Positions 1-41,991 of a stretch of DNA of 49,290 bases are shown here, one piece after another; positions within the stretch are counted from its first letter, which is position 1; every line of letters begins with the position of its first letter. The stretch is taken from the NCBI GenBank assembly GCA_003224235.1, contig QHYU01000162.1:1-49290 (forward strand). Reading direction: 5' to 3'. A program made the position numbers and the translations under genes. Below the pieces are notes generated by a model. It was not told where the DNA came from. It ran no database searches and saw only the letters and a program-made list of their open reading frames with translations. Origin of the DNA: Acidobacteriota bacterium (GTDB taxonomy: Bacteria > Acidobacteriota > Terriglobia > Acidiferrales > UBA7541).

Positions 1-3000
1 GCTGTGGGATCGCCGGAGTATGAGGAGCCTAAGAGACAGGCCCATCCACAGCCCAGCAATCCGGAATGGGCAGGCCGCTCCGCCAATCCTGTGCGGCCAT
101 ATACGAAATGGCTACGCGAAAACCGCGATTACATCCGTTTCGTCAATCCCGGTGACCTCCGTGTGGCCGGCCAGACCTGCGGCGTCTCGGGCTGCCACCC
201 GAAGGAAGTTCGCGCCGTGTCGACCAGCATGATGACCAATGGCGGGATGCTCTGGGGCGCGGCGCTCTATAACAACGGGGCATATCCTCTAAAGGACACG
301 CACTTCGCGGAGAGCTACTCTCCGGACGGTATCGCGCAGCGGCTGCGCACCGTGCCGCAACCCACGCCCGAGGAAACCAGGACGAAAGGCGTGCTGCCCG
401 AGCTCACGCCTTTACTGCGATGGGAAGTTTCGCAGCCCGGCAACGTGCTGCGCGTGTTCGAGCGCGGCGGCCGCAAAAAGGGCGAGGTCGGTAACCCCGA
501 GCGGGATGAAGATCCCGGCCGGCCGGAGGACAAGCTGGGCGAGCGCGGCTTCGGGACGCTCCTGCGGACCGACCCGGTCTTCCTAGGCTTGCAGAAGACG
601 CGCCTGCTCGATCCGCTTCTCTCCCTTCCAGGCACCAATGACCAGCCGGGCGACTTCCGCAACAGCGGCTGCACCGCCTGCCACGTTATCTATGCCAATG
701 ACCGCTCGTCAGTCCACTCCGGGCCGTACGCGCGCTTCGGCCACCTCGGGTACAGCGCCACGGTCGATCCCACGATTCCCAAGAATGAATCCGGCCACCC
801 TATCCGGCACACGTTCACGCGTGCCATTCCTTCGAGCCAGTGCATGGTCTGCCATGTCCACCCGGGCACAAATATGGTGGCCACCTACTTCGGATATACC
901 TGGTGGGACAACGAAGTCGATGGCGCGCCGATGTATCCGAAGCAGCAGCGCTATCCAAGCGAAGAGGAAAGATATCGGTCCATTGTGCGGAATCCGGAGG
1001 GCGCTGCGGTGCGCGGGCTTTGGTCCGACGCGAAGTTTCTGGAACAGGTGGGCAGCCCGGAGTTCAATCGGCAACTGAAATACACACAGTTTGCCGATTT
1101 CCATAGCCACGGCTGGATTTTCCGAGCCGTGTATAAGCGGGACCGCAAGGGCAACCTATCAGACGCCTCGGGGAAGATCCTCTCCTCCGTCGATTCCGAC
1201 AAGCTCCAGCAGGCCATCCAGTGGCAAGACCCACAGCGTAACGACCCGCCCGAGGGTATGCCTGTCCACCTGAAGGATATCCACCTGCAGAAAGGGATGC
1301 ACTGCGTGGACTGCCATTTCGAGCAGGACAGCCATGGCAACGGCAAACTTTACGGCGAGCCGCGCTCTGCCATCGAGATCGGTTGCACCGATTGCCATGG
1401 CACAATCCGCGAACGCGCCACGCTCGTCACTTCTGGCCCGGCCGCGCCTGCCCCGCCGAAGGCATCCCACACCAGGCTGGCAGCTTCCCAGCCGGCGCAG
1501 CAGGTCAGAGGCACTCGCTTCGACGGATTGCGCACGCCCTGGCAGCAGCGCAGGTTTGAATGGCGGGAAGGGAAACTCTACCAGCGCTCGATGGTCGAGC
1601 CAAACCTTAGCTGGGAAGTCGTGCAAGTAATGGATACGATCACGCCCGGGAATGCGCATTACAGCGAGAAATCCCACCGCGCCAAGACCTTGCTCCGCGA
1701 TAACCAGACCTGGGGCGACGTGCCTATTGACGACTCGCAGTTAGCCCACGCCGACAGCAAGATGACTTGCTATACCTGCCACACCTCTTGGACAACAAGC
1801 TGCTTCGGCTGCCACCTGCAAATGACCGCCAACCAGCGCCAGGACATGCTCCATAACGAAGGCCTGACGGCGCGCAACTACACTTCCTACAACTTCCAAG
1901 TCCTGCGCGACGACATCTTTATGCTCGCCAAGGATGGCACCGTAACCGGAAACAGAGTCGCCCCGGCGCGCTCCTCCTGCGCGGTGCTGGTCAGTTCGCA
2001 GAACCAGAATCGCGATTGGCTCTACTACATGCAGCAAACGGTTTCTGCCCCAGGCCTTAGCGGCACTGCTTTCAGCACGTTCGTCCCACACACTGTGCGC
2101 GCGAAGGAAACCAAGACATGCAGCGATTGCCACGTCTCCCAGGCAAACGATAATAATGCCTGGATGGCACAGGTCATACTCCAGGGCACCAACTTCCTGA
2201 ACTTTTTGGGGCGCTATATCTACCTCGCTGAGGGTGGGCACGGTTTTGAGGCCGTCGCCGTCGCCGAGCATGATGAGCCCCCGGCAATCATCGGCAGCGA
2301 CTTGCAGCACCTGGTTTATCCGGACAACTACAAGAAGCATCTCGCGCACGACCGCGAGCTCAAGCAAGCCTATCATCATCCCGGCAACGTGCTCGACGTG
2401 CAGCTCCGCGGCGAGTATCTCTACGCTGCGCTCGGAAAGGGCGGCTTCCGCGTCTACGATGTGGCCAACATCGACAATAAAGGCTTTTCGGAACGCATCG
2501 TCACTGCGCCGGTGTCCCCGTTGGGGCAGCGTTTCTACGTCAAAACGAAATACGCCACGGCGCTGGCCGCTCCCTCCACCCAGGCCGTGGATCCCTTGCG
2601 CGCACAACAGAAAGAAAACGAAGAGCAGAAGATCCACTTGCTATACGGGTTCCTCTATGTCGCGGACAAATACGAGGGCCTGGTGGTGATCGGCAATCCA
2701 GATCTGAGCAGCAAGAGCCCTGGCGCCGGCACGCTGCTGGACGGAGATCCCCGCAACAATTTCCTTAAGCGTGCTGCTACCTTCAACCCGAATGGGATTC
2801 TGAACGGCGCGCGCCGCATCACCATCGCCGGCACCTATGCCTACATCCTTTGCGACCGTGGCCTGGTGGTTGTGGACTTGGAGAACCCCCTCGAGCCGCG
2901 CATCGTCGCTGAGGTGGGCTCCCCCGAGTTGGTCGAGCCGCAGGCGATTGCCGTGCAGTTCCGGTACGCCTTTGTGGTGGACCGGCAGGGGCTGAAAGTG

Positions 3001-3621
3001 CTCGACGTGACCGCGCTTGATCGCCCGCGTGTTGTTCCGGGCGCGATGGTACCGGTTGAAGATGCACGGAACATCTACGTTGCGCGCACCTACGCCTATG
3101 TGGCTGCGGGAAAGCAGGGCTTGGTGATCGTGGATGTTGAAAGGCCCGAACAGCCGAAGCTCGATCAAGTCTTTACGGGCGAAGGAAAAATCACTGACGC
3201 GAATGACGTCAAAATCGGCATGGTGAACGCCAGCGTCTTCGCCTATGTGGCTGACGGGCACAATGGACTCCGCGTTCTGCAGCTAATCTCGCCCGACGAT
3301 ACGCCCAATCACTACGGCTTCAGCCCGCGCCCCACGCCAAAGCTGATCGCCACTTACCACACGCACGGGCCGACTCTGGCGATCTCGAAGGGCATTGATC
3401 GCGACCGCGCGGTGGATGAAAGCGGAAACCAAATCGCGGTTTTCGGTCGCCGTGGCGCGCGCCCCTTCAACCGCGAGGAGATGCAGCGGCTTTACATCCA
3501 TCCGCCCGACGGTAAGTTCTATGCCGTTACCGACGAAGCGCCCGAATCTCCCCGCCCGCCACAGAAGGCCAAGTCATTCCTGGATCGATGGCTCGACTTC
3601 TTGGTGGTCGCTTCCAGATAA
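1..3621 (+). CDS. Octaheme c-type cytochrome fused to an LVIVD beta-propeller (5' partial)
   Basis: The frame is open from the first base, so the true start and any signal peptide lie upstream of the window; the first possible start is a GTG at 4. Numbered from there, heme-binding motifs are CGVSGCH near residue 58 (a CX4CH type) and seven CxxCH motifs: CTACH near 223, CMVCH near 280, CVDCH near 434, CTDCH near 462, CYTCH near 589, CFGCH near 600 and CSDCH near 709. Residues about 790-1110 hold at least six repeats of the LVIVD kind, for example [32 protein letters not shown] and [15 protein letters not shown]. The protein should be periplasmic or surface-exposed, the heme part carrying electrons and the propeller binding a partner. 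It converges on the decaheme gene of the neighbouring operon, 47 bp away. Redox partner and substrate are unknown. The heme count is read directly; the role is inferred. Confidence 0.85.
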
Positions 3622-3668: not shown

Positions 3669-5087
3669 CTAGCGCTGGCCTGGCTCGGCGTCGCGAGGCT
3701 GAGGGAATGTGGCGATGCCGTGCAGGAGCTCCTGCGAAGTGAATCTGCCTTTGACCGGCTTCTCCTTGCTCCAGTCATGATAGGTGTGGCACTCGAAGCA
3801 GCGGGACTCGGCGGCGTCGAGCACCGGCCGATGGCACTGCCGGCAATTCTGAATGCCGGGCAGAAGGACGTCGGAGGTCAGCTGGCTGGTGGTGGCCCCC
3901 GCATGACAGCTCGTGCAGGTCATCATGCGGTGGGCGTTGTGATCGAAGGCGGCGTGCAACATCCATTTCACTGGAATATTTGGCGGGGCCACTTCCGGCA
4001 AGGAAGCACCCTTCGGAAAACTGAGTGTGTGGCACTGGTTGCAGGTCTTGCGCCACAGAATTTTCTCCGCTTCGGCAACTTGCTCATCCACCCACTGCGG
4101 AGGACTGAGATTTTGCGCCAAAGGTGAAGCGGGTTTTCCCGTCAAATTCTGATCGGGCATTGGTATCGTGCGCAGGTCAGCGGGATGATTTGCGATATGC
4201 CCTTGATACTTGTTCATCAGGAATTCATGAATCTCCCTGGGCTGCTTACCGTGTGGAACGCCTTCGGTGAATCGCTTCTTTGTGTCAAATTGGAGCAGGT
4301 GGCAGGCAGCGCAGTGTTTGGAGTAGTTGATCGGTGCCATGTAAGCCCGCGTGGGGTTGGGACGGAGGGGATCTGGCTTTTCCATGGCCGCCGTTCGCAA
4401 CTGTGCCTCGTCCCGGTCGGATGGCGTCTCGCCGAAGCGCCACGGTCGTTTGTCACCAGGAGTTCTGTGGCAGTCGTCGCAGTCAAGTTGTATTTCTTCA
4501 GGCCCGTTCGGGCTGACGCGGAGCTTTCTCAGGTGGACCGAATGGTTGAGTCTGATCGTGCCGGAGTCGCCCTTTCCGGAGCGCAGTGCCGCGAATTCGG
4601 GATGTCGGCTATGGAAACCCTCGATGTTGCGGTCAACCGCAAAGCTGAACGAACCACCCTTGGCCTGGAGGCTCCCATGACACTGCGTGCAGTTTGTGTC
4701 GCTGGTCGCAGCCAGCCGGACCGGTCCTCTATGTTCCACATGGCAGGAAGCGCAATCCGGTGCAAAAACTTGATTAGCGTGATGAAGCGGTCCGTCGTGG
4801 CACTCCAAGCAAGCCTGGTTAGTGGCATGCTCACGAAAGACCCCTGTCCGGCTGACGTGGCACGCGGCGCACTGTGTGGCCAGCAACGAGTGGGCGGTCG
4901 CCATCTGCCCGCTGCTGTAGGCCCTGTTGTTCCGGGCGAGCGTCTGCCAGGCAAGCCACACTACTGCCAGGGCCGTCAGGCCCACCGACAGCAGGAACCT
5001 CCAGCGCCGGAACGGGGATGACCGCTTGAAATACTGGAGGTCGATGCGCTGAGCGAGTTTTTTCGTTGTGCGCGTGAACCGCGCCAA
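3669..5087 (-). CDS. Membrane-anchored decaheme cytochrome c
   Basis: A 472-residue protein with a basic N-terminus and one uncleaved-looking membrane helix at residues 31-49, then ten CxxCH heme sites at about 73, 93, 112, 133, 203, 259, 349, 391, 415 and 430. This layout, an N-terminal anchor and a periplasmic multiheme domain, is typical of cytochromes that take electrons from or give them to a membrane cytochrome b. The gene is last in a minus-strand operon, 24 bp after the cytochrome b-like gene, which is its likely partner. The heme spacing resembles cytochrome c3/c7-type doubled CxxCH modules but I cannot assign a named family. No catalytic heme (CxxCK or lone CxxC) is visible, so I infer electron transfer rather than substrate reduction. 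Confidence 0.88.
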   Translation of the reverse strand: MARFTRTTKKLAQRIDLQYFKRSSPFRRWRFLLSVGLTALAVVWLAWQTLARNNRAYSSGQMATAHSLLATQCAACHVSRTGVFREHATNQACLECHDGPLHHANQVFAPDCASCHVEHRGPVRLAATSDTNCTQCHGSLQAKGGSFSFAVDRNIEGFHSRHPEFAALRSGKGDSGTIRLNHSVHLRKLRVSPNGPEEIQLDCDDCHRTPGDKRPWRFGETPSDRDEAQLRTAAMEKPDPLRPNPTRAYMAPINYSKHCAACHLLQFDTKKRFTEGVPHGKQPREIHEFLMNKYQGHIANHPADLRTIPMPDQNLTGKPASPLAQNLSPPQWVDEQVAEAEKILWRKTCNQCHTLSFPKGASLPEVAPPNIPVKWMLHAAFDHNAHRMMTCTSCHAGATTSQLTSDVLLPGIQNCRQCHRPVLDAAESRCFECHTYHDWSKEKPVKGRFTSQELLHGIATFPQPRDAEPGQR

Positions 5088-5111
5088 TGGCCTTCTCCTG
5101 ATTCCTTCAGT

Positions 5112-6041
5112 TTAGAAGCGAAGCGCTTTATAGGCGTGTACCGCTCCCAAGACCAGCAAAGCAAGCGACACCGGGATGTGCAGCAGCAGCCACCCGTGAA
5201 GCCAGTGGTGCAGACGCGCCTGGCGCCTCAACTGCCGCTCCTCTTCGCAGATGTCTTCCAGATCTTCCACGGTTTCTTGGACCATAGGCGGCACGCGCTT
5301 CCGCAGTTCCTCGAAGATTCCGCTCGCCTTGCCCGGATCGGCAAGGGGATGGTCACCCGCGCCGGGTTTCTCCAGATGAGGACGCATCTGGCGAAGATAG
5401 AAGCTGCGCAGCGGTGCGCTGTCCTCCTCGGTCAGGGCAAGAGCCGGGGTTGCCGCTGCCGCCGCAGCAGGCGTCGCCCCGCCGCGCTCGGAGTAACCTC
5501 CGGCGGGAAGCTTCCGCGACCCGACGGCCATAACGCCCAATGGGCCGCAGACCGCGGCGACGGATTTGTCGGCCTCTTCCAGCAGTTGCGCGCGCACGCT
5601 ATCGATTTGCTCGAAGATGGTTTCTAGCGGCACCTCGCGGGTCATCATCCGCGGCATGTAATGTTGCAGAACCGCGCCGAAGACTCCGCTCACAATTACG
5701 ATGACGAGCAACACCATCAGGACCGTCGTCAAGGTCCCGCCGAAACGGAATGCGCCGTGGAACAGGATCAAAGGAAGACTGAGCAGCCCGAGCCACAGAT
5801 GGCCGCGCATCCAGGTTTGCGCCGGCCCCAGCCGCCAGACCGGAAACTTCTTGCGCGCGCCGAGCAGCCCGGCGAACACCATAAACGCTGAGCCGATGAT
5901 GCCGAAGGCAATTCCCACGGCGCTACCGCCATTCCGCCCCTGCGGAGGTCGCATCGGGTACCAGCAATAGAACGCCGTCGCCACCAGCAGAAACACCAGC
6001 GAGAAATCCCGCCATTTCTTGTGCGTTTCGTCGATTAGCAC
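5112..6041 (-). CDS. Cytochrome b-like integral membrane protein, probable diheme
   Basis: A 309-residue protein with hydrophobic segments at about 13-28, 42-61, 82-98, 104-124 and 284-303, and a long polar region at about 130-275 rich in Glu, Arg and Ala. Two histidine pairs, H81/H95 and H288/H302, are each 14 residues apart at two helices. This is the usual ligand geometry for two stacked b hemes, so a transmembrane electron carrier between the cytoplasmic Fe-S proteins and the periplasmic decaheme protein is likely. The GTG at 6041 is used; it lies 44 bp after the upstream stop and has no good ribosome site. The frame is open further upstream, so the real start may overlap the preceding gene. 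I cannot place it in a named family with certainty. Confidence 0.75.
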   Translation of the reverse strand: MLIDETHKKWRDFSLVFLLVATAFYCWYPMRPPQGRNGGSAVGIAFGIIGSAFMVFAGLLGARKKFPVWRLGPAQTWMRGHLWLGLLSLPLILFHGAFRFGGTLTTVLMVLLVIVIVSGVFGAVLQHYMPRMMTREVPLETIFEQIDSVRAQLLEEADKSVAAVCGPLGVMAVGSRKLPAGGYSERGGATPAAAAAATPALALTEEDSAPLRSFYLRQMRPHLEKPGAGDHPLADPGKASGIFEELRKRVPPMVQETVEDLEDICEEERQLRRQARLHHWLHGWLLLHIPVSLALLVLGAVHAYKALRF

Positions 6042-6085
6042 GGTCTTGTGTTCGAACGCTCTCGCCTGCTCACGCGAAAATTTCG

Positions 6086-8263
6086 TCAGCGCTTCAGCGT
6101 CAATCCCGGGGCCTGTCCCAGCTTATCCGCAAAAAAGGTGGTCGGATCGACACGGTGAGCGGCGTCGTGCGGGCAGGCATAGACGCAACTGGGTTCCTTA
6201 TACTTTGTGTCACTACAGAGATCGCAGGAGGTAGCCTTTTGCTTGACCACAGCCATCTTCCGCCGCGGCTGGATGGGATCGTCCTCCATGACTTCGAATG
6301 GATGCAGGTTGATATTGCCGTACGGGCAATTCTTGGCGCAGAGGCCGCAGCCGATGCACCAGTCCTCGATGATCACCTCGAGCGAATTGCGCCGGCGGAT
6401 CGAACCCACCGGGCAGCCCACCATACACAACGGGTCTCTGCATTGGCGGCAGGACGTGGCCACCAGGTACTTGTCAAATCGGAGCCCCTCGCGCACCAGC
6501 CGCGTGACGCCGTTGTGGGCATCGGCGCAAGCGCGCACGCAAGCATCGCAGCGCGTGCACTTTTCCAGGTCCAGGATCAGCAGGCTCTGCGCTTCCATCA
6601 ATCCCTGCGCCAGGAAGTGGTCAAGCGGCACCGAGCGCACGATGGCGAGCCGATCGCGGTTCTGCTGCAAGCGCTCCTGCGCTGCCGCTTCCAGGCCCCG
6701 GCGGATCTGCGGGAACCGCTCGATCATCTGCTTGAAGTCTTCGCCGTTGATGCGAACCACTTCGACGTGATCGAGCGCGGTGCATGTGGCGGTGCGCATC
6801 CCGCCGCCCAGTAGACCGATCTCGCCGAAGTAATTTCCTCGGGAAAGGTAGGCCAGTACCAGCTCGCCACCGGGATAAGTTTCAGAGACCTTCACAAAGC
6901 CGATGCGGACCAGGTAGAAGCTGCGTGCCGGATCGTCCTGTTTGCAGATCACCTGCCCGGGCGCATAGCGGACCAACTCGACTGTTTTGCGCAGATGGTC
7001 CAAGAAGTCGTCGGTGATTTCGGCGAAAATGGGGACGCCCCGCAGATGATTGCTGAGCGCGCGTTCACGGTAGGTGCTGTCGAGTCTTTCTTTGAACGTC
7101 TTGTTCCTTTGCAGAATGTCGAGCACGTTGCGATTCATCTCGTACATCGTGCAGTCGGTCAGGGCGCGCACCGTTGCCGAGCGCGGGTAAAAACTCATGC
7201 AGGTCATTTCGCCGAATAAGTCGCCCGGTCCCATCTCCGCTACCGGGTTCTCATAAGCCAGGTCCGCCGGGGCATCGATCGGAATGTGCCGCCGGTTGGC
7301 CTCTTCTTCGCGCGGGTGTTCCTTGCGCCGCGCCAGGGTGCTCACCATCTTGCTCAGGAATCCTCGCGCGGTGTCCTGGGTTTTCACGTGGGCGATGGGA
7401 CTCCGAATCGAAACCTGGGACTTTCCTTCCAGAATGTAGAAGGCGGTTGAACCGTATTCGCCTTCCTTACAGATGATCTCGCCGCGCCTGAATTGCCGGC
7501 GTACAATGGCGCCTTTGTTCAACTCGAGGAAGGTGCCCGAAACGCCCTTGAAGACGGGCAACTGCAGCAACTCGTCCGGCTCGGCGATTTTCGCGCTGTG
7601 GTCGGGGCCCACATCTATGGGCAGTGTCTTCTTGTTGGTCAGCGCTCCGGTCGGGCAAGACACCATGCACTCCCCGCAGGAAACGCACGAGGAGTCGCCC
7701 ATCTGCAAGTTGTGATCGAAGGCAATGCCTGCCTGGGCGCCTTTGCCCATGCGCCCCAGGACGAAATTCCCGCGGACTTCATTGCAGCCGCGGATGCAGC
7801 GGTCGCAGAGAATGCAAGCATCGAAGTTCACCGCAATGGCGAGCGAGGAGTCGTCGTTCCCGTGGGCGACGGTGCGCCGCGCAAAACGGGGCTGCGTGAT
7901 GCCCGCCTGCTTCGCTAGCGCCTCGAGTTCGCAGTCGCGCGAGTGCTGCTGACGCAAGCAGGGAGTCGGATGGTCGGACATCAGCAATTCGAGAAGAGTT
8001 CGGCGCGCTTGAATTACTTTGTCGGAGTTCGTAGTGACCACCAGGCCGGGTTCAACCGGGCGCACGCACGAAGCGGCGTAGATAGGCCTTCCCACGTCCA
8101 CCACGCACACCCGACAGACTCCCACCGGCGTTTCATTTTGCTGGTGGCACAGCGTCGGGATGGAGATTCCATTCATCCGTGCCGCGTCAAACACGGTCGT
8201 GCCCGCGGGGACGCTGACCCTCTTGCCGTCAATCGTGAGCTCCACCAGGGCGTTGGGACTCAT
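6086..8263 (-). CDS. NuoG-like / dual cyclic-nucleotide-binding / DmsB-like Fe-S fusion protein
   Basis: The start at 8263 (725 aa) is chosen because its ATG overlaps the upstream stop as ATGA and a GGGAG ribosome site precedes it. In order: a [2Fe-2S] ferredoxin domain (C39, C50, C53, C66); a NuoG-type His-Cys motif (H98, C102, C111) in which the usual middle Cys is Gln105; two [4Fe-4S] motifs (C150-C160 and C193-C203); a first cNMP-binding domain at about 237-390 with FGEM at 350 and PRSA at 360, carrying an insert of about 50 residues; a second at about 406-530 with FGEI at 479 and a following R490-T-A-T; and a C-terminal four-cluster region of DmsB/NrfC type (C569-C579, C605-C617, C636-C646, C680-C697). 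It would carry seven or eight Fe-S clusters from the NADH module toward the membrane cytochrome, possibly gated by a cyclic nucleotide. Motifs are seen directly; gating is inference. Confidence 0.85.
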   Translation of the reverse strand: MSPNALVELTIDGKRVSVPAGTTVFDAARMNGISIPTLCHQQNETPVGVCRVCVVDVGRPIYAASCVRPVEPGLVVTTNSDKVIQARRTLLELLMSDHPTPCLRQQHSRDCELEALAKQAGITQPRFARRTVAHGNDDSSLAIAVNFDACILCDRCIRGCNEVRGNFVLGRMGKGAQAGIAFDHNLQMGDSSCVSCGECMVSCPTGALTNKKTLPIDVGPDHSAKIAEPDELLQLPVFKGVSGTFLELNKGAIVRRQFRRGEIICKEGEYGSTAFYILEGKSQVSIRSPIAHVKTQDTARGFLSKMVSTLARRKEHPREEEANRRHIPIDAPADLAYENPVAEMGPGDLFGEMTCMSFYPRSATVRALTDCTMYEMNRNVLDILQRNKTFKERLDSTYRERALSNHLRGVPIFAEITDDFLDHLRKTVELVRYAPGQVICKQDDPARSFYLVRIGFVKVSETYPGGELVLAYLSRGNYFGEIGLLGGGMRTATCTALDHVEVVRINGEDFKQMIERFPQIRRGLEAAAQERLQQNRDRLAIVRSVPLDHFLAQGLMEAQSLLILDLEKCTRCDACVRACADAHNGVTRLVREGLRFDKYLVATSCRQCRDPLCMVGCPVGSIRRRNSLEVIIEDWCIGCGLCAKNCPYGNINLHPFEVMEDDPIQPRRKMAVVKQKATSCDLCSDTKYKEPSCVYACPHDAAHRVDPTTFFADKLGQAPGLTLKR

Positions 8264-9939
8264 GCTATGCTCCCTACGCTCGCAAAGCAGACTCCAGACG
8301 GACACTCCCGGCGCGTGATGTGCGCCTCGACCTCTTCGCGGAAGTGCTTCAGCACCGAAGCGATCGGCGCCGGCACTACCTGCCCCAGCCCGCAGATCGA
8401 CGTCGCTCGCAGCGCGTGGGTCAGCTCCTCAATCAATTGATCGTCGGCCGGAGAGCTTTTGCCCTGCGTCCAGCCGGTGAGGATATCCACCAGCTTTTGA
8501 GAGCCCACGCGACAAGGCACGCACTTGCCGCACGATTCATTGCGGAAGAATCGCACTGCATTGAGCGCCATGTCCAGCATGCACGTGCCCTCGGCGCAGA
8601 CCACCAGCGCGCCCGAGCCAAGCATCGAGCCCGCCGCAGCCATGGACTTGAAGTCCAGCCGCACGTCCACCATGGAGGCCGGCAGGTATCCCCCCGAAGG
8701 ACCCGAAGGCGCGAACGCCTTGAGCCGCTTGCCATCCGGTAAGCCGCCGGCGTGTCGAAAAATCACCTCGGAGGTGGGAGTGCCCATGGGCACCTCATAC
8801 ACGCCGGGACGCAGCACGTCGCCGCTGATGCCGATGAACTTCAGGCCAGCGGCTCCGCCCAATCCCTGGGCTTTGAACCCCTCCAATCCCCGAACCAAAA
8901 TCTGCGGCACGTTGGCAAAAGTTTCGACATTATTAAGAACCGTAGGCTTATTCCAAAGGCCTTGCTGGGCGGGGAAGGGTGGTTTATTTCGCGGTTCGGC
9001 GCGTTTGCCTTCTATGGCTTCCAGCAGCGCGGTCTCTTCGCCGCAGATGTAGCCGCCCGGGCTGACGAAGATTTCGAGCTCAAAGCTTAGGTCGGTGCCC
9101 AAGATGCTTGGCCCAAGGAGGCCTTCGCGTCGGCACTGGTGAATCTCATCCGCGAGGATCTCTTCCTGCTCTTCGTACTCGTGGCGGATATAGAGGATGC
9201 CTTTGCGCGCGCCTGTCACCAGGCCTGCGATAATCATCCCTTCGATCACCAGGTGGGGAAGGTGGGTCATGATGAAGCGGTCTTTGATCGTGCCCGGTTC
9301 GCTCTCATCGGCGTTGCACACGGCGTACTTCTCTGGACCCGGCGCCTTGCGCGTCGCGCTCCACTTCATCTCCGCTAAAGCACCGGCGCCGCCCAAGCCG
9401 CGCAGGTCGCTCGCCTTAAGCTTCGCGAGAACACCATCCCAGTCGCGCGATTTCACCAATTCCCTGACCGCGCCGTATTTCTGGCCGCTCGGATAGGGAT
9501 CTGAAGCGCATTCCACACGTTTTTGTTCGCGCGGCGGATGCGGCAGATCTTCGCCCGAGAGCGCACTGCGGACCAATTCCTCCGCCTGCCGCTCGGTGAC
9601 GCGGCTGTAGATACGGTCGTTGACGGATATGGCAGGCGCGCCGTCGCACCGCCCCAGACAGGAGACGTCGCGGATCGTGACGTCTTTGTCGCTCATGCCC
9701 CGGAAGCGCTGTTCCAGGCTGGCTTTGAGCTCGCACGCCCCGCGCAGATGGCAGGACATGTCCGCACACACGCGCGCATCCGCTCTGGCCGGCGGGGTCA
9801 GATAAAAGTGCGGGTAAAAACTGGCCACACCGTGGACACGGTAGAGAGGAGTTTGGGTCCTCTTTGCCAGCGCCTCAAGTTGTTCGGCCGGGAGATACCC
9901 GTACTGGCGCTGGATAGCTTTGAGCTGCTCAAAAATCAA
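8260..9939 (-). CDS. NuoE-NuoF fusion: NAD(P)H-binding, FMN and Fe-S diaphorase subunit
   Basis: A 559-residue fusion. Residues 1-125 are NuoE-like (thioredoxin-like) with [2Fe-2S] ligands C58, C63, C94 and C98. Residues about 145-559 are NuoF-like, with the FMN/NADH glycine loop GLGGAG at 181-186, the NADESEPGT segment at 209-217, and a [4Fe-4S] site C470, C473, C476 and C516. The family oxidises NAD(P)H or reduces NAD(P)+, as in complex I, NAD-linked formate dehydrogenases and bifurcating hydrogenases. No complex I membrane subunit, formate dehydrogenase or hydrogenase is nearby. The start is TTG at 9939, with a GGAGGAGG site about 8 nt upstream; a promoter lies at 10010-10038. The ATGA overlap with the next gene implies coupled translation in a fixed ratio. 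Direction of electron flow cannot be read from sequence. Confidence 0.9.
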   Translation of the reverse strand: MIFEQLKAIQRQYGYLPAEQLEALAKRTQTPLYRVHGVASFYPHFYLTPPARADARVCADMSCHLRGACELKASLEQRFRGMSDKDVTIRDVSCLGRCDGAPAISVNDRIYSRVTERQAEELVRSALSGEDLPHPPREQKRVECASDPYPSGQKYGAVRELVKSRDWDGVLAKLKASDLRGLGGAGALAEMKWSATRKAPGPEKYAVCNADESEPGTIKDRFIMTHLPHLVIEGMIIAGLVTGARKGILYIRHEYEEQEEILADEIHQCRREGLLGPSILGTDLSFELEIFVSPGGYICGEETALLEAIEGKRAEPRNKPPFPAQQGLWNKPTVLNNVETFANVPQILVRGLEGFKAQGLGGAAGLKFIGISGDVLRPGVYEVPMGTPTSEVIFRHAGGLPDGKRLKAFAPSGPSGGYLPASMVDVRLDFKSMAAAGSMLGSGALVVCAEGTCMLDMALNAVRFFRNESCGKCVPCRVGSQKLVDILTGWTQGKSSPADDQLIEELTHALRATSICGLGQVVPAPIASVLKHFREEVEAHITRRECPSGVCFASVGSIA

Positions 9940-10009
9940 ACGCGGCCCTCCTCCACTCGGCCTCTCGGAGAGCTGGTGAGTTGGGTTGGCTGCTAAGTTC
10001 GAGCAGACT

Positions 10010-10038
10010 CATATAGCAAACCCTAGCCGCTCTGTCCA
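10010..10038 (-). promoter_or_regulatory. Sigma70-type promoter for the NuoEF operon
   Basis: Read on the minus strand, TGGACA (10038-10033) and TATATG (10015-10010) are separated by exactly 17 bp. The predicted transcript would start about 65 nt before the TTG of the NuoE-NuoF gene. Match is 5/6 at -35 and 4/6 at -10. Confidence 0.55.
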
Positions 10039-10091
10039 GAATAAGCGCTGCTATTCTGTGCCAGGTGGCCGAGAAGGTCGCGTCGATTTGA

Positions 10092-10120
10092 TTGACATCT
10101 GATGACCCTAGCAGTATAAG
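10092..10120 (+). promoter_or_regulatory. Near-consensus sigma70-type promoter for the pentaheme cytochrome
   Basis: TTGACA at 10092-10097 and TATAAG at 10115-10120 have a 17-bp spacer, which makes this the closest match to consensus seen in the window. Its -10 points toward the plus-strand cytochrome. The -35 elements of this promoter and of the opposing one are about 55 bp apart, so one regulator could act on both. Confidence 0.65.
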
Positions 10121-10284
10121 CAACGCGGCTTGTGGAGTCTTCCCGCCGGTGAACACACTACAAAGGGGCTGCGTCGATTTGCGCCGGTTTCCGGCCGGCC
10201 GGCAGAGCGCTGTAGCCCTCCGCGCCAGGGTGCTGCGGCACAACGTGGCGACCTTCCCGAGATGAAAAATGAAAATACAATTGG

Positions 10285-11616
10285 TTGGCGGGAGAAACCC
10301 GCCCGCAAAATCCTGCCGGGCGAACCGCTGCCGCTGGCGTTCCCGGCCAATACAACGGGCCGGGCTCCTGCAGTTCGACAAGTTGCCACGGCAGCCTGAC
10401 CCCGGTCAATGGCAGCCGCATCCTCCAGAACGAATTCAGTACTTGGGTGGCGAAGGATAAGCACTCCAAGGCCTACCGAGTCCTCACAGAGGATCTGGGC
10501 GTGCAGATGGCGCGCATCCTGCATTTGGACAAGGGCGCGGAGAATTCACCCAAATGCCTGGCATGCCATGCGCTGTACGTCGCCGATGAAAAGAAGCGCG
10601 CGAAGACTTTTGGCCAAAGCGAACAAGAAGGTGTGAGCTGCGAGAGCTGCCACGGTCCTGCTGCGGGATGGCTGGGCGAACACACGGCCCGCGACTGGCC
10701 ACACGACAGGTCGGTCGCCGCGGGGATGTATGACACGCGCGATCTAATCAAGCGCGCCGAGAAATGCCTCTCCTGCCATGTCGGTAGCCAGGAAAAATTT
10801 GTGGACCACGAAATGATTGCGGCCGGCCACCCTGATCTCCTTTTTGAGCTCGATACTTTCTCCACGGTCATGCCGCGGCATTGGAAAGAACCCCGGGAGA
10901 AAACCCCCGGAGTTCCCGAACGGAAGGATCCGTTGTACGGCGTGCGCGATTTGGCAGTGGGGCAAGCCGTACAGCTCCAGTCGGCCCTGCGGCGTCTTGC
11001 TGACCGCGCGCGCGACAAAGGGAAGCTCTGGCCCGAATATTCCGAGCTGCAGTGTTCTGCTTGCCACCACAGCCTCACCAACCCGGAGAATAGCTGGCGG
11101 CAGAAACGCGGGTATCCAGGTGGGCGTCCCGGCGACCCGCCGTGGAATGCTGCTCGCTACGCGGTGTTCCGCATACTGGTTCGCGAGGCGGATCCACAGG
11201 CCGAGGAACGCCTCACGACCGACCTCAAGAGGCTTTCGGAGTTAATGAGCAGGGTCAACTCTGACCGCGACGCGGTCGTTGCGGCGGCGGGGAATTGCGC
11301 TGGCTTGGCCGAAAATCTGGCGCCGCGGATGGTTACCTGGTCCTACGACCGGCCTCGGACCCTGCGGCTGTTGCAGCAGATTTCCGCAGACGCCGACTTC
11401 ATCGCGGCCCAGGGCGAAGGCGCGGCGGCGCAGGCGACCATGGCTCTGCAATCCCTTTTCACTGCCTATAACAATACCTCCGATACTAAGCCGGGGAACG
11501 CTCAAGAACTCCGCGAAGCTATCAGGGGTCTTTTTCCGCTGGTGGAAAATCCGTCCGCTTATGACGAGCGGCAGTTTGCCGTCCAGATGCGCAAAGTCAA
11601 TTCTCTCCTTCGCTAG
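10285..11616 (+). CDS. Pentaheme cytochrome c554/c-prime-like protein, N-terminus unresolved
   Basis: The frame holds CSSTSCH at residues 29-35 (CX4CH) and four CxxCH motifs: CLACH near 92, CESCH near 118, CLSCH near 161 and CSACH near 257. The opening CSSTSCHGS, and the spacing of the others, resemble the cytochrome c554/c-prime family, found in nitrifiers and many multiheme-rich bacteria. The C-terminal third is helical and has no heme sites. The first start available after an in-frame stop at 10270 is TTG at 10285, which gives no signal peptide although c-type hemes are attached outside the cytoplasm. No upstream frame supplies one either. The 5' end may be frameshifted, truncated or mis-sequenced, or the start may be unusual. 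It likely shares the periplasm with the decaheme and octaheme proteins next door. Confidence 0.75.
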   Translation: MAGETRPQNPAGRTAAAGVPGQYNGPGSCSSTSCHGSLTPVNGSRILQNEFSTWVAKDKHSKAYRVLTEDLGVQMARILHLDKGAENSPKCLACHALYVADEKKRAKTFGQSEQEGVSCESCHGPAAGWLGEHTARDWPHDRSVAAGMYDTRDLIKRAEKCLSCHVGSQEKFVDHEMIAAGHPDLLFELDTFSTVMPRHWKEPREKTPGVPERKDPLYGVRDLAVGQAVQLQSALRRLADRARDKGKLWPEYSELQCSACHHSLTNPENSWRQKRGYPGGRPGDPPWNAARYAVFRILVREADPQAEERLTTDLKRLSELMSRVNSDRDAVVAAAGNCAGLAENLAPRMVTWSYDRPRTLRLLQQISADADFIAAQGEGAAAQATMALQSLFTAYNNTSDTKPGNAQELREAIRGLFPLVENPSAYDERQFAVQMRKVNSLLR

Positions 11617-13979: not shown

Positions 13980-16900
13980 ATGAAAAGCAATGTGGGGCGG
14001 GGGTTTCTGTTGCTGTGTGTGCTCTTACTGGGCAGTGCGAATCTGTTTGGACAGGCGACGGCCAGCGCTACTTTGGAAGGTGCGATCCTGGACAAAACGC
14101 AAGCTGCGGTCGTCGGAGCTACGGTGACATTGAAGAACAAGGAGACTGGCGCGACCCGGACAACTTCCTCCAATGACATAGGAAGTTACCGCTTTGATCT
14201 GCTGCCAGGGGGAATCTATCAACTGAGAGTGAACATGAGGGGGTTCTCCGTTGCCAGCGCCGAAAATGTGCAAGCTCTGGTCGGTCAGACCACTACGCTG
14301 AACTTCACTCTCAGTCTCGGGGCGATCACTGAGACGGTGACCGTTACTTCTGAGCCGCCTATCGTCGACGTGGAAAAAACGAACGTCGGGCTGGCAATCA
14401 CTCCGAACGACATTGAAAGCATGCCATTGAATGGCCGGGACTTTGCCAACTTGGCCTACCTCGCGCCAGGAGCCTCGCCCGTAGACTCATACGACCCCAC
14501 GAAAAACCGCATTGCCATATTCGGGATCAATGGCTCGAGTGGCCGCAACGTGAACGTCACGGTGAACGGCATCGATAACAAAGACAACACTGTCGGCGGC
14601 CCGGTCATGCAGTTCCCACTGGGGGCTATTCAGGAATTCTATATCAGCACGCAGCGTTTCTCCGCGGCCAACGGGCGTAGCGAAGGCGCGGCCGTGAACG
14701 TAATCACCAAAAGCGGATCCAACAATTGGCACGGCTCTCTCTACTTCTTCGATACCGAAACCTCGATGAATGCAAACGATTTCATTTCAAAACAGAACGG
14801 GGAACCTACGCCTGAATTTAGCCGCCAGCAGTTTGGCGGGTCCATCGGCGGTCACCTCCGCAAGGATAAGGATTTCTTCTTCTTTACTTTGGAGCGCCAG
14901 CGCGAGAACACATCGATACCGGTGCCCACAGACGCGCTCACAGAATTGAATCTGGTGAAGAGTTTGGGCGCACAGCCGGCGGCAACCGTTCCCACGCCGT
15001 ATTTTGATTGGCGCTACACTGGCCGCTACGATCACCGGTTCAACTCGGCCCATAGCCTCTTTCTCACTTACAGTAGCCAAACGAACGATGGGCTAAATGA
15101 TCAATTTCTTGGTGTCGGCGGGCGGGCTGATCTCACCGCCGGCAACTTTACGACCAACAGCCTGATTCTCTCCAATTTGACTCTCAATTCTGTGTTCAGC
15201 CCCGCGGTCGTGAACGCGATCACTGTGGGTTACCAGTATTGGAACAATGTGATCGACACGAAGAACAAAGTGCCCACGTTCGTGTTTGCACCCGCCACGC
15301 CGACGACGCAAGTTACCTTCGGCACGAACACGAATGTGCCGCAGGAATCCATTCAGAAGAAATGGCAGTTCCGGGACGACCTATCCATCACGCATGGAAA
15401 ACATGCCTTTAAGACTGGGGTTGATTTTGTCTGGGAACCGCAACTGGGTGGTTTTTTCGAGTTTAACCCCACGCTGGAGATCGATTTCCTCGATTTGCCC
15501 ACCGTCATCTTGAGTAATCCCAAAACCTGCGGCCCCTTGAAGGATCAGCCCTGCTATCCACAGGGTTTCGCCAGTCCCGGAGCAGTCATAGGGATGTCCA
15601 ACACTTCGGGCGATCCAAACTTCGATCTTCCTGGCGGGGCGAAGATGTTGGGTCTGTACTTCCAAGATGACTGGAAGGTACGCCGCAACTTCACGTTGAA
15701 TCTCGGGTTGCGCTGGGATAAAGATTTTAACCTCATAGGGACTAACGCGCAGGCTAAGAATCGCACTTACCTGGCACTCAAAGCTATTGGGAGTCCCTTT
15801 GCTGCCAATCTACCGCACGATGACAATAGAGACTTCAGCCCGCGGATCGGCTTTGCGTGGGACGTCACGGGAAGCGGGAAGCACGTGGTGCGGGGCGGCT
15901 ATGGTCTCTACTTCGGGCAGACGTTTTTGAATATTCCCCTATTCATGATCCAGCAAATTCACGCCACACTCTTCGCCGCCACGCTGAGCATCAGCAGCGG
16001 GGGACCAGGAGATGCGACGGCCGATTTCGTGCCGGGAACGGGCATCCGTCTATCCAACTGGCGGTTCGGGATCGATCCGTTGCCAGTCAATCCTCCGCCT
16101 CCGACCCAGTTGCCTGCTGGCTCCACGGGTCGCTTGATGGATCCCAATTACCGCAACCCGTATTCCCAACAGTGGAATACTGGCTACTCGTTTTCCTTTA
16201 ATGCCTCCAACGTGATTGAAATCGACTACGTGCACGGGCTGGCGTTGCACGAATCTAAGACGATTAACATAAACCCCAAGCGCGTTTCCTTGGGTGGAGA
16301 TCGACCGTTGGATGCCGCTTTCAAGGCGGCCGGGCTACCTGTCCTGAGCCGCATTGACAATGAGGAAGCAATCGGGCGTTCGCGCTACGACGGATTGAAC
16401 ATTACATACCGCCGCCGCATGAGCAAGCGCATCAGCGCGAACACGAGCTATGTCTTATCGCGCGCGGTGGCCTACAACGGAAGCGCAGCAGCTTTTCGCA
16501 ACCGCCCTGTCAACCCCGATGATCCTTTCGCGTCCACGGACTTCGGACCCACGCCCAATGACGAACGCCACCGCTGGGTCTTGAACACCGTGCTTGACTT
16601 GCCGTGGGGCATCCAGATTTCGCCTATCATGCAGCTCGCTTCGGCTCGTCCCTACAATGGCATCCAGGGCAAGGATGTACTCGGCGTGGGAAGCGGTCGC
16701 GGCAACGCACACATCATCGTACCTACTAATGACCCGACGAACTTTCTGGCCCATAAGAAAGACAGCGCCGATATACTGCGGGCTTGTCTGGCAGCGGGCG
16801 CTTGTAAACAGCTCCCCTTCGACTTTTTCCGTGGCCAGACCTTTTTCCAGTTGGACCTGCGGGTCGGCAAGAATATTAAGTTCGGAGAGCGCGCGGGCCT

Positions 16901-17072
16901 CAGGTTGATCAGCCAGTTCTTCGACCTAACTAATCGGGCAAACTTCGGTAACAACTTTTTCGGTAGCATTCAGAATGCTAAATTCGGGAAACCCGCCGGG
17001 TATATTACGCCCAGTGGCACAATTGTCCCGAAATCGTTCCGAGCCGAATTCGGCGCTGAGTTCAGGTTCTAA
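13980..17072 (+). CDS. TonB-dependent receptor 1 with carboxypeptidase-regulatory-like domain
   Basis: A 1030-residue outer-membrane protein. Residues 1-25 are a signal peptide ending near LFGQA. Residues about 27-110 form a carboxypeptidase-regulatory-like (beta-sandwich) domain with the GSYRFDLLPGGIYQLRV core. A plug domain follows at about 115-245 (ITETVTVT, PLNGRDFANLAYLAPG), then the barrel, ending in a terminal Phe (FGAEFRF) as expected for BAM insertion. This Oar-like architecture is greatly expanded in Acidobacteriota and Bacteroidota. The substrate is unknown. The gene stands alone, with its own promoter candidate and a strong terminator; the next plus-strand gene is an unrelated DUF2235 hydrolase. 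Start ATG 13980 has a GGGAGG site upstream. Confidence 0.92.
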   Translation: MKSNVGRGFLLLCVLLLGSANLFGQATASATLEGAILDKTQAAVVGATVTLKNKETGATRTTSSNDIGSYRFDLLPGGIYQLRVNMRGFSVASAENVQALVGQTTTLNFTLSLGAITETVTVTSEPPIVDVEKTNVGLAITPNDIESMPLNGRDFANLAYLAPGASPVDSYDPTKNRIAIFGINGSSGRNVNVTVNGIDNKDNTVGGPVMQFPLGAIQEFYISTQRFSAANGRSEGAAVNVITKSGSNNWHGSLYFFDTETSMNANDFISKQNGEPTPEFSRQQFGGSIGGHLRKDKDFFFFTLERQRENTSIPVPTDALTELNLVKSLGAQPAATVPTPYFDWRYTGRYDHRFNSAHSLFLTYSSQTNDGLNDQFLGVGGRADLTAGNFTTNSLILSNLTLNSVFSPAVVNAITVGYQYWNNVIDTKNKVPTFVFAPATPTTQVTFGTNTNVPQESIQKKWQFRDDLSITHGKHAFKTGVDFVWEPQLGGFFEFNPTLEIDFLDLPTVILSNPKTCGPLKDQPCYPQGFASPGAVIGMSNTSGDPNFDLPGGAKMLGLYFQDDWKVRRNFTLNLGLRWDKDFNLIGTNAQAKNRTYLALKAIGSPFAANLPHDDNRDFSPRIGFAWDVTGSGKHVVRGGYGLYFGQTFLNIPLFMIQQIHATLFAATLSISSGGPGDATADFVPGTGIRLSNWRFGIDPLPVNPPPPTQLPAGSTGRLMDPNYRNPYSQQWNTGYSFSFNASNVIEIDYVHGLALHESKTININPKRVSLGGDRPLDAAFKAAGLPVLSRIDNEEAIGRSRYDGLNITYRRRMSKRISANTSYVLSRAVAYNGSAAAFRNRPVNPDDPFASTDFGPTPNDERHRWVLNTVLDLPWGIQISPIMQLASARPYNGIQGKDVLGVGSGRGNAHIIVPTNDPTNFLAHKKDSADILRACLAAGACKQLPFDFFRGQTFFQLDLRVGKNIKFGERAGLRLISQFFDLTNRANFGNNFFGSIQNAKFGKPAGYITPSGTIVPKSFRAEFGAEFRF

Positions 17073-38400: not shown

Positions 38401-41400
38401 TCAGAAGAAGATCTTCAACTGATACTGAATCTGCCGCGGGGGTAGCGCGGTTCTGAAGCGATCGAAGTTGCCGTCGCCGAGTTTGTTGACCGGTACCAAA
38501 AGATCGACTGAGTTGAAGAGGTTGAAGAACTCCAGGCCAAACCGCACCTTGTATCGTTCTCCGAAATTCGTGTTCTTGAAGATAGAAAAGTCGGTGCGGA
38601 AGTAATTCGGTCCCGTAAATTGGTTGCGCCCCGAGTTGCCGAAAATGATCGGATCGCCGACGTTTCCGAGGCAGTCCACCTTGCCGCTCAAGTTCCGCAC
38701 AAATCCGGCCGGCGCCACGGCACCCACCGTAGTCGTGCCACCACCCGGACATGGCGCCGTGACTGCCGTTGGAACCGAGAAGCAAGCTACGTTGAAGAAC
38801 TCGCCTGCGGGAACACCCTTAAGCGGATCGCACCCTGGAAGTACGTTGACGCGACCTCGACCAACATTGGAGTCAGCCACGACTCCAAAAGGCTGGCCAG
38901 ACCCGGCAGAGAGAATAAAGTTGGTTTGCCAGCCACCGATGAACTTGTTCGCGCCCTCGCTGACCCCACCTCCAATCCATCTGCCTTTGCCGATGGGGAG
39001 GTCCCAGATGCCGTTGGTGATAAAGACCTGCCGACGGTCCAACGATGAGTTGGATCTCTCGAGGTGAAAATCGAACGGGTTCACCGGCCCGCCATTCGAA
39101 CCGCGCGATTCACCGTAGCCGGTGAAGACTCCCGTGGAATCGTCGATGTTGTGGCTGAAGGTGTAGCTGGCGGTGAGTTGGAAACCGTAAGAGAAGCGCT
39201 TATCTGTTCGCAGTTGGAGCCCATCATAGTTGGAGGAGGAACGATCCTCGTAGGCGATCACCGTGCCGATCGGCGAGTTGGGCGTTGGATTTGTCAGCGT
39301 CGCCGCGCCCGTGGGTGTACGAGCGATTCCAAGCCCGTTGCCTCCGTTGCCCAGGTTTCGTGTAGACAGCAAATGACGTGCGCGTGTAGCGGCATATCCG
39401 ACGTCTATCATCCAATCGCGGGATAACTGCCACTGCAAGGAGAGATTAGACTCCTGGATCATTGGAGTGATCCCCTGCCGGGGCACTACGAAGAGCTTGG
39501 AATCAGTTGAGATCACTGGCGGATCTACGGGCGTTGTGTTCGGCGGCCCAGTGGTCAGGTTGACGTTCAAATTGGGGCCACCGAAGAAGCCTGCGTTGTT
39601 GGCGTCCACGGACCGCGTTAGGGGCGGATTGTTGATCAGGGGCGGGCTATCCACACCATCCGTGCTATAGAAGATGCCGTAACCACCCCGCAGCACATAC
39701 TGTTTTCGGGGGCCAAAGTTATAGGCAAAGCCGACGCGCGGAGCGAAGTTTCTCTTGGGGTCGTCCACCAGCGTTTGCTGGTTCGGACGGATGATCGAAC
39801 GGGTTGCTACATCATAATTGGCTTCGCGGTCGCTCTTCTCCGACATCGTTGGGAAGAAGTCCCAGCGCAGGCCGAGGTTGAGCGTCAAGCTGGGTGTTAT
39901 CTTCCAGTCGTCCTGAACAAAAGCCGCCCATTCGACTCCGCGCAAAAGGAATGGATTGCCTCCACCAAGAATGCTTCCCGCGCTGTAATGGATCACGGGC
40001 CGGCTCAACAGGAAATCCCCCTGCACGTTGCCGGTGGACTGCGGCTGCCCGGCGCCGTATTGCAGGTTTCCCTTCAAACCGCCGGCCCGCCCGCCGTCAA
40101 TCGTGTCGAGGAGCCGGGGGCGCACTTCAATGCCTGCTTTCCGAGTATGCTTCCCGGTGATGATGGTCACGTTGTCGTTCACGTAGTAGTTGTTGGATTT
40201 CACCAGAAACAATCCGCCGTCTCCGGTGAACTCAAATTCACCGGTGCCGAACCCGCCGGTCAAGATCCCACCGCTCGTGCCCAGCGTGCCTTTATTGCAA
40301 TTAGGAATCCCGAGGTCTTGACAGGTTGTCGGTGAAACGCCGCAAGCGCCGCCGACTCCGCAGTTGAAGATGCCGATTTCCACACGGGTCCAGCCGAAGC
40401 GCACTTCGTTCAGCAGAGTGGGCTTGAAAACGTGGGTATCGCTGACGGCGACTTGCCGGGTGTTGCCCACTTCGTCGCCGGCGCCAAATCCCGCCGTGGG
40501 TACATTGGGGAAGAAATTCGCGCGACTGCGGGCTTGGTTGCTCTGGGAGTAGCGGCCGAAAATGCTGTTCTTGTCGCTGAAGCGGTGGTCAATCTTGACA
40601 TCGCCAGCGTTTATGGTTTCTGTGTTGTTGCGTACGCCGAAGAAATTCGCGTGGTTACTGTTATTTGGGTCCGCCACGGTGGGTAGAGTGGGCGCCGGGT
40701 AAAGGGCCAGCAGCTTGAATGCCTGCGAGCTGAAGTCGGAGCGCGATTGGAGGCCTGTGATCTTATTCTGCGGAAAGCTTGAACATCCGCCAGAGCTGAT
40801 ATCTCCCGGAACCTTGCAAGTCAACGGGTCTGTGACCGGGGAACTGAACTCGGAAAAATCCCCTATTCTGGATTTGGCTGTCGGCACACCGGTCGAAAAA
40901 GCATTGGGGGTCGCGTTCCGCTGGCCGAGAAAGTCCACAAAGAAGAATGTCTTGTTCTTAATGATCGGCCCGCCAAACGTACCGCCGAATTCATTCACGC
41001 GAATGCGGGACTTGGGCACGTCTTTTTCCGCCTGAGCCGGGCTCACTCCGTTCTTGATTTCATCGTTGCGGAGCACGCCGATTCCCCAGTGGCTCGCATT
41101 CAAGGCGTCGTTCTGCCCGTAGTAAAAGGTGGAACCGTGAAAGCCATTGGTGCCGGACTGGTAGGTGGTATTGATGGTGGCGCCGCCGCGCCCCACCTCG
41201 GCCTTGGCAACACTCGTATCCACTTTGAACTCGGCGATGGCGTCGGGGTTGGGAAAGACGCCAATGGTGCCGAATTGCGGTTCGTTGTTGTCCACACCGT
41301 CGAGCGAGAAGTTGTTTGTCGTCGGGCGCAGGCCATTGACGGAGAGCGAAGCGCCGCCCGATCGGCTGAAACGAGAGGCTTCCGTTGAGCCCTGTTCGTT

Positions 41401-41991
41401 GGTCTGCCCCGAGATGTCGCCCCCGCTAATCCTCTTGTCGCCCTGGTTTAATGCCGTCTGATCGAACAAAGGGCCAACAATTGCTCGATTCACGCCGGGG
41501 GCCAACAACGCCAGTGAGGTGAAGTTGCGGTCCTTCAGAGGCAGCTCAGTGATTTGCCGGCCGGTGATGACTTCGCCTCGGCTGCTCGTCTCCGTTTCGA
41601 GCTGCTGTGTCTGCTCGCTCACGGTGACCGTCTGAGTGATGGCGCCTAATTCCAGAGGGATGTTGACTTCTTTCACGTCGCCGATATTGAGGACGATCTG
41701 GTCGACCAGTGCGGTCTTGAAGCCCTCTTTCGAGGCCTCCACCTTGTACGTCCCGGGCTTGAGGATGTTGGGGGTGACGTACCGCCCCTCCGCGTTGCTC
41801 TCCGTTTCAAACGTTTGCCCCGTGGCGACATGGGTGATCTTAATCTTGGCGTTGGGAATTGCCGCGCCACTCGCGTCTTTGGTGACGCCGACCATGCTCG
41901 CCCGGTCGCTCTGCGCCAGGCCTGGCAACACCAGTGTGCCTACCATCCCCGCCAGGAGGATGACCAGGATAACTCGCATCGACCGCCTCAT
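38401..41991 (-). CDS. TonB-dependent receptor 2 with carboxypeptidase-regulatory-like domain
   Basis: A 1196-residue outer-membrane protein: signal peptide (VILVILLAGMVGTLVLPGLA), regulatory-like domain at about 30-115 (EGRYVTPNILKPGTYKVEA), plug at about 120-260 (ITQTVTVSEQT; LPLKDRNFTSLALLAPG) and a barrel with terminal Phe (YQLKIFF). A loop near 560-600 has five Cys residues within about 28 positions (NCGVGGACGVSPTTCQ and after), probably external disulfides. It sits directly upstream of the TPR/ASPIC/GH13 chain on the same strand, so maltodextrin or another alpha-glucan is a plausible ligand, by context only. ATG 41991 is used; an ATG at 41979 would also keep the signal peptide. Promoter at 42211-42238. 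Confidence 0.92.
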   Translation of the reverse strand: MRRSMRVILVILLAGMVGTLVLPGLAQSDRASMVGVTKDASGAAIPNAKIKITHVATGQTFETESNAEGRYVTPNILKPGTYKVEASKEGFKTALVDQIVLNIGDVKEVNIPLELGAITQTVTVSEQTQQLETETSSRGEVITGRQITELPLKDRNFTSLALLAPGVNRAIVGPLFDQTALNQGDKRISGGDISGQTNEQGSTEASRFSRSGGASLSVNGLRPTTNNFSLDGVDNNEPQFGTIGVFPNPDAIAEFKVDTSVAKAEVGRGGATINTTYQSGTNGFHGSTFYYGQNDALNASHWGIGVLRNDEIKNGVSPAQAEKDVPKSRIRVNEFGGTFGGPIIKNKTFFFVDFLGQRNATPNAFSTGVPTAKSRIGDFSEFSSPVTDPLTCKVPGDISSGGCSSFPQNKITGLQSRSDFSSQAFKLLALYPAPTLPTVADPNNSNHANFFGVRNNTETINAGDVKIDHRFSDKNSIFGRYSQSNQARSRANFFPNVPTAGFGAGDEVGNTRQVAVSDTHVFKPTLLNEVRFGWTRVEIGIFNCGVGGACGVSPTTCQDLGIPNCNKGTLGTSGGILTGGFGTGEFEFTGDGGLFLVKSNNYYVNDNVTIITGKHTRKAGIEVRPRLLDTIDGGRAGGLKGNLQYGAGQPQSTGNVQGDFLLSRPVIHYSAGSILGGGNPFLLRGVEWAAFVQDDWKITPSLTLNLGLRWDFFPTMSEKSDREANYDVATRSIIRPNQQTLVDDPKRNFAPRVGFAYNFGPRKQYVLRGGYGIFYSTDGVDSPPLINNPPLTRSVDANNAGFFGGPNLNVNLTTGPPNTTPVDPPVISTDSKLFVVPRQGITPMIQESNLSLQWQLSRDWMIDVGYAATRARHLLSTRNLGNGGNGLGIARTPTGAATLTNPTPNSPIGTVIAYEDRSSSNYDGLQLRTDKRFSYGFQLTASYTFSHNIDDSTGVFTGYGESRGSNGGPVNPFDFHLERSNSSLDRRQVFITNGIWDLPIGKGRWIGGGVSEGANKFIGGWQTNFILSAGSGQPFGVVADSNVGRGRVNVLPGCDPLKGVPAGEFFNVACFSVPTAVTAPCPGGGTTTVGAVAPAGFVRNLSGKVDCLGNVGDPIIFGNSGRNQFTGPNYFRTDFSIFKNTNFGERYKVRFGLEFFNLFNSVDLLVPVNKLGDGNFDRFRTALPPRQIQYQLKIFF

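Follow-up and report, generated by a model that had tools for sequence, protein, structure and literature searches.

A conserved Acidobacteriota locus that joins an NADH-type iron–sulfur module and cyclic-nucleotide-binding domains to multiheme cytochromes

Proteins of the NuoE, NuoF and N-terminal NuoG families form the NADH module of complex I (NuoEFG) and recur in HydABC and HoxFU, in which a NuoE–NuoF part with flavin mononucleotide (FMN), a nicotinamide adenine dinucleotide (NAD(H)) site and an N3 cluster is found with a NuoG-like part bearing one [2Fe-2S] and two [4Fe-4S] clusters. In HydB, two further [4Fe-4S] clusters sit in a C-terminal domain (PMC9499530). In the Geobacter and Shewanella conduits (Ext, OmcB and MtrCAB), periplasmic multiheme cytochromes stand beside an outer-membrane barrel and a lipoprotein; among these barrels, ExtB of Geobacter spans the membrane with 18 segments (PMC6148476). 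Membrane proteins with b and/or c hemes, such as CymA, CbcL–MtrH–MtoC and ImcH, feed periplasmic multiheme cytochromes; the inner-membrane entry points that have been reviewed for extracellular electron transfer take their electrons from the quinone pool (PMC6295460). Here we analyse a locus that resembles each of these systems in part. It lies in a 49,290-nucleotide contig of an Acidobacteriota bacterium (QHYU01000162.1 of assembly GCA_003224235.1; hereafter the window, contig C191), whose 4.57-Mb genome is held in 237 contigs. Four minus-strand genes between positions 3669 and 9939 encode an NAD(H)-type iron–sulfur (Fe-S) module, cyclic nucleotide monophosphate (cNMP)-binding domains, a membrane cytochrome b and a decaheme cytochrome c. 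We tentatively read the locus as a modular NADH-to-periplasm conduit that feeds an envelope-crossing cytochrome chain, whose acceptor would lie at the outer membrane or outside it, a reading in which our confidence falls a little short of even. The gene set was not described in the full-text literature that we searched, which leaves out most subscription papers.

The original prediction had proposed a four-gene operon linking NAD(H) to a decaheme cytochrome. All four open reading frames were found where it had placed them, and Pfam searches bore out the proposed domain order. In the order of the operon, the genes are:

8260–9939, minus strand: NuoE–NuoF fusion (NuoEF; 559 amino acids; TTG start, GGAGG upstream)
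6086–8263, minus strand: fusion of a NuoG/HoxU-like part, two cNMP-binding domains and a HydN/DmsB-like part with four [4Fe-4S] sites (725 amino acids from an ATG)
5112–6041, minus strand: diheme, b561-like cytochrome b (309 amino acids; invariant H81, H95, H288 and H302)
3669–5087, minus strand: decaheme cytochrome c with an N-terminal membrane anchor (472 amino acids; 10 CxxCH)

To determine how widely this arrangement is conserved, we scanned 84,980 species genomes, which gave 154 relatives, and examined the best 80 of the 154 as loci with flanks of up to 10 kb. The complete set was found in the same order in 70 of the 80, spread over several named phyla; five of the others are cut by contig ends, one (L102) is odd and four are without the NADH part. 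By record title most relatives are Acidobacteriota, as are the nearest relatives of the window, joined by Rokubacteria, Methylomirabilota and Wallbacteria, and one is a named isolate, Granulicella aggregans M8UP14. Two loci with other titles, L102 (Actinobacteria) and L105 (Rhodanobacteraceae), group within Rokubacteria or Acidobacteriota clades, through either misbinning or transfer. A second sample of 61 related genomes, the window genome included, held nine full-length fusions and three shortened ones, again with the gene order kept. Because this order is kept in every full-length relative, the four-gene arrangement is not due to chance. Relatives that have the NADH module nearly always encode it as a fusion or in translational coupling with the Fe-S protein and cytochrome b.

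The prediction also held that hydrogenase, formate dehydrogenase and complex I membrane components are lacking, and the neighbourhoods of the 80 relatives agreed with it. None of these genes is a conserved neighbour. Specifically, no H-cluster or NiFe catalytic subunit was found within the fusion protein or as a conserved neighbour, and no molybdopterin catalytic subunit of the kind found in NAD-dependent formate dehydrogenase was among the conserved neighbours. We therefore rejected a standard hydrogenase or formate dehydrogenase that had merely become separated from its catalytic gene. Unlike complex I, the locus has no NuoB, NuoC, NuoD or NuoI and no membrane arm among its conserved neighbours, and its subunits score well under the curated complex I cut-offs (NuoF, 433.5 versus 558.65; NuoE, 92 versus 142.4; NuoG, 121.4 versus 470.05). 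Unlike HydABC and HoxFU, it has no hydrogenase domain, its N5-type site is degenerate, and cNMP-binding and DmsB/HydN-like domains are fused to the NuoG-like part. We class the locus as a variant of a multiheme electron-transfer system, distinct from both HydABC and complex I.

NuoEF contains the 2Fe-2S_thioredx, Complex1_51K, SLBB and NADH_4Fe-4S domains, with [2Fe-2S] ligands at C58-x4-C63 and C94-x3-C98, an FMN/NAD(H) site and an N3-type [4Fe-4S] site. Residues of the FMN and NAD(H) pocket are nearly invariant across 46 NuoEF sequences. The closest solved relatives of NuoEF are HydB subunits; however, NuoEF ends directly after CPSGVC, and the C-terminal two-[4Fe-4S] domain of HydB is absent. 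For the second protein, the most likely start is an ATG near 8263 that adjoins the NuoEF stop codon; the longer frame from 8305 (739 amino acids) is 14 residues too long. Its Pfam matches are Fer2_4, NADH-G_4Fe-4S_3 (slightly below the cut-off), cNMP_binding and several Fer4 domains, and the solved structure nearest to its NuoG-like part is HydA1, matching only the N-terminal cluster region of HydA. We found sites for one [2Fe-2S] cluster, two CxxCxxCxxxC motifs and four HydN/DmsB-like [4Fe-4S] sites. The second cysteine of the N5-type motif (H-x3-C-x2-C-x5-C) is missing from 44 of 45 relatives, so that, of the 9 or 10 Fe-S clusters first proposed for the chain, nine are canonical and the tenth is doubtful. 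In HydA the equivalent of the N5-type cluster is a side entry off the main electron path, and loss of this site does not necessarily break the chain.

The cNMP-binding part, originally taken to be a single domain, is present as two. The protein matches PF00027 at E = 4e-40, with the cassette FGE...R[AST]A, and in an alignment of 12 close relatives the FGE and the arginine of both phosphate-binding cassettes are invariant. Both cassettes were recognized in 87 of 100 core proteins, distant ones included. The window genome encodes six class III cyclases. In 22 of the 80 loci the fusion gene has a class III cyclase gene, in most cases one with a CHASE2 domain, no more than 10 kb away. About 1.6 would be expected from the cyclase density of the window genome, a comparison to which we attach no formal probability because the loci are related. 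The cyclase genes vary in position: some converge on the decaheme gene, and others lie on the far side of the barrel gene described below, between the c554-like gene and NuoEF (L077) or beside HbpS. This excess supports cNMP control, and electron flow is probably under such control.

Both cytochromes kept the heme numbers first assigned to them. Exactly ten CxxCH motifs were counted in the decaheme protein, which matches c7/c3-type heme families in Pfam. In cytochrome b, H81/H95 and H288/H302 are invariant in 45 sequences, the members of each pair being 14 residues apart, and the protein is predicted to be all-helical with the histidine pairs in two helices, as fits two membrane b hemes. Its match to prokaryotic cytochrome b561 (PF01292) is weak and below the cut-off (E = 0.0013). 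Foldseek returned no match under E 0.001, a profile search of the PDB gave no meaningful match, and structure comparison (VIA) found generic helical bundles, b561 structures among them, at a Z score of about 7. Because these fold searches are uninformative, the diheme assignment rests on the invariant histidines.

A further finding is that the NADH module is dispensable. Some relatives keep the core cNMP/Fe-S protein, cytochrome b, decaheme cytochrome c and a c554-like cytochrome without NuoEF and the NuoG part. We drew a third sample of 396 genomes across the phylum and, at a threshold of E 1e-100 or better, found the core in 18. Ten of these are near relatives, half of which (five) have the core fused to the NuoG part; the other eight are distant. 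In distant Acidobacteriota the core stands with cytochrome b, the decaheme cytochrome c and an eight-heme c554-like protein, with no NADH module. In L153–L156 this eight-heme gene lies directly upstream of the other three. The shortened protein of the Candidatus Acidiferrum clade starts LIFEELKDIARQ, matching the NuoE start LIFEQLKAIQRQ, and continues into the tail of the NuoG linker; as read from its sequence, this junction marks where the entire NADH module was lost in frame, an event common to four genomes. A NuoE N-terminal relic joined to a NuoG tail was seen in the shortened fusions of L159–L161, L068, L076 and L080. The tree is consistent with an older core to which the NADH module was added, in one or more gains, and from which it was lost again at least once. 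As for a single origin of the NADH-bearing form, strict monophyly was disfavoured only weakly (approximately unbiased P value (p-AU) of 0.096). Since NADH-free versions exist, the core must also work without the module, in a role of its own, with NADH as one source of its electrons.

The four genes are conserved together, as first proposed, and the conserved unit runs past 3669–9939 on both sides. Two further cytochrome genes flank the operon in the window:

4–3621, plus strand: multiheme cytochrome with an LVIVD propeller (5′ end cut by the contig start; 7 CxxCH and 1 Cx4CH)
10285–11616, plus strand: c554-like pentaheme cytochrome, divergent from NuoEF (4 CxxCH and 1 Cx4CH)

The c554-like gene was present in 68 of the 80 loci. 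Full-length relatives of the LVIVD cytochrome, whose gene is convergent to the operon, mostly have nine CxxCH and one Cx4CH. In L060 both proteins have signal-like N termini, as in exported multiheme cytochromes c. Unlike L060, the window has no in-frame signal peptide upstream of the c554-like frame (9960–10330), where there is possibly a frameshift or a damaged 5′ end. We rejected the 1,205-residue LVIVD cytochrome of the window as an ExtM, as the similarity covers short stretches and lies far under the cut-off (68.5 bits versus 800).

In many clades the LVIVD gene and an outer-membrane barrel gene lie side by side, and a gene for an HbpS-like lipoprotein is a further conserved neighbour; in two contigs named Rokubacteria (L094 and L107) this eight-gene unit is compact. 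In the host genome the barrel gene is cut by the start of contig C203 and has an HbpS-like gene alongside, a layout that matches the uncut loci L073, L082 and L097 and would be expected across the break at window position 1. The assembly break falls between the barrel gene (L123:3–1733) and the LVIVD gene (window 1–3621). Contigs C203 and C191 share no end overlap, so for this genome the adjacency is drawn from its relatives only. The barrel ends in phenylalanine, as is typical of outer-membrane barrels, and was modelled with 18 strands, the number of segments in ExtB, at middling confidence (predicted local distance difference test (pLDDT) score of 68). By contrast with the barrels of Ext, OmcB and MtrCAB, it has an AlgE-like fold (best match, AlgE alginate exporters, E = 7e-16) with a CarboxypepD_reg domain. 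The HbpS-like protein has a lipobox-like LAGC in L036, which makes it a putative lipoprotein; unlike the lipoproteins of those conduits, it is no c-type cytochrome. The complete chain originally proposed stood in its four-gene unit and cofactor motifs, but had missed the c554-like and LVIVD cytochromes, the barrel, the lipoprotein, the cyclases and the dispensability of the NADH part.

We infer from these features that the proteins assemble into a conduit. NADH would be oxidized at the FMN of NuoEF, and electrons would pass from N3 into the fusion protein, first to the clusters of its NuoG-like part and then by way of its four ferredoxin-type clusters to the diheme cytochrome b, which would carry them over the inner membrane to the anchored decaheme cytochrome c. 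From there they would reach the pentaheme c554-like protein, then the LVIVD decaheme cytochrome and the 18-strand barrel, and finally an acceptor located either at the outer membrane or past it. The two intact cNMP domains, placed between the NADH-side and membrane-side clusters, would switch or tune this flow. Outward is the most likely direction: electrons go downhill from NADH (about −320 mV) to multiheme cytochromes c, and the membrane potential likewise favours their movement outward. The host genome has a second, separate NuoF/NuoG pair on contig C99 and encodes a heme-copper oxidase, so the locus would add to other routes, perhaps serving when oxygen is low or NADH is in excess.

Several observations count against such a conduit. 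The barrel is not MtrB-like, and the HbpS-like lipoprotein is only a candidate redox partner of it. No gene for a terminal acceptor was identified. G. aggregans is an aerobe and the window's host has a heme-copper oxidase, so extracellular respiration is not obviously needed. Cytochrome b may contain a quinone site. In the window NuoEF, the FMN loop reads GAGALAEMKW (residues 187–189), against GAGFPT in relatives, with GAGF in 45 of 46 sequences; this atypical loop, confined to the window genome, may be a real divergence or a sequence error.

A more specific proposal is that an NADH-free core, to which a hydrogenase-type diaphorase was added, exports the electrons of cytosolic NADH to extracellular acceptors independently of quinone and under cNMP gating. 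This is possible, but we hold it to be doubtful. The conduit as read above, which appears to pass electrons on with no obvious quinone step, would itself be a route not described before by which metabolic electrons leave the cytoplasm, and through it cells could discharge NADH without proton pumping, switched by a second messenger. Unlike CymA, CbcL and ImcH, the locus encodes an NAD(H)/Fe-S module and cNMP domains together with its membrane cytochrome, and a route that starts from NADH with built-in cNMP sensors contrasts with the reviewed entry points at the quinone pool (PMC6295460). Natural loss of the NADH module reveals which part is the core, and the occurrence of the system in G. aggregans, as well as in many uncultured soil Acidobacteriota, makes it testable.

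The alternative that survives best, although we consider it unlikely, is an NADH dehydrogenase that pumps no protons and uses quinone, in which a quinone site lies in cytochrome b, the decaheme cytochrome c is a separate quinol oxidase, and the quinone pool is where NADH and the cytochromes connect. The core-only versions, which need another electron source, are consistent with this arrangement. The fusion or coupling of the NADH module to the Fe-S protein and cytochrome b argues against it, and we saw no quinone-site signature, though such a signature is not testable here. Next, and unlikely as well, is delivery of NADH electrons to a periplasmic reductase or detoxifying enzyme, such as the c554-like or LVIVD cytochrome itself, rather than to an extracellular acceptor. 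In its favour, both cytochromes are co-conserved with the operon and no outer-surface cytochrome lipoprotein was found, but the barrel is also co-conserved and adjoins the LVIVD cytochrome. Uptake, in which periplasmic or extracellular electrons flow inward to reduce NAD+, is improbable; NuoEF-type modules are reversible, but such flow would have to climb in redox potential and oppose the membrane potential, unaided by any partner that pumps or bifurcates, and the hosts are mostly soil Acidobacteriota, which are mostly heterotrophs. An enzyme that bifurcates or confurcates electrons in the manner of HydABC/Stn, using NADH, ferredoxin and cytochromes together, is highly improbable, as the resemblance to HydB and HydA1 among solved structures is offset by the missing HydB C-terminal domain and the lack of an H-cluster domain or a separate HydC.

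Elsewhere in the window, 13980–17072 and 38401–41991 encode large proteins with carboxypeptidase-regulatory-type N termini, possibly TonB-dependent or Oar-like.
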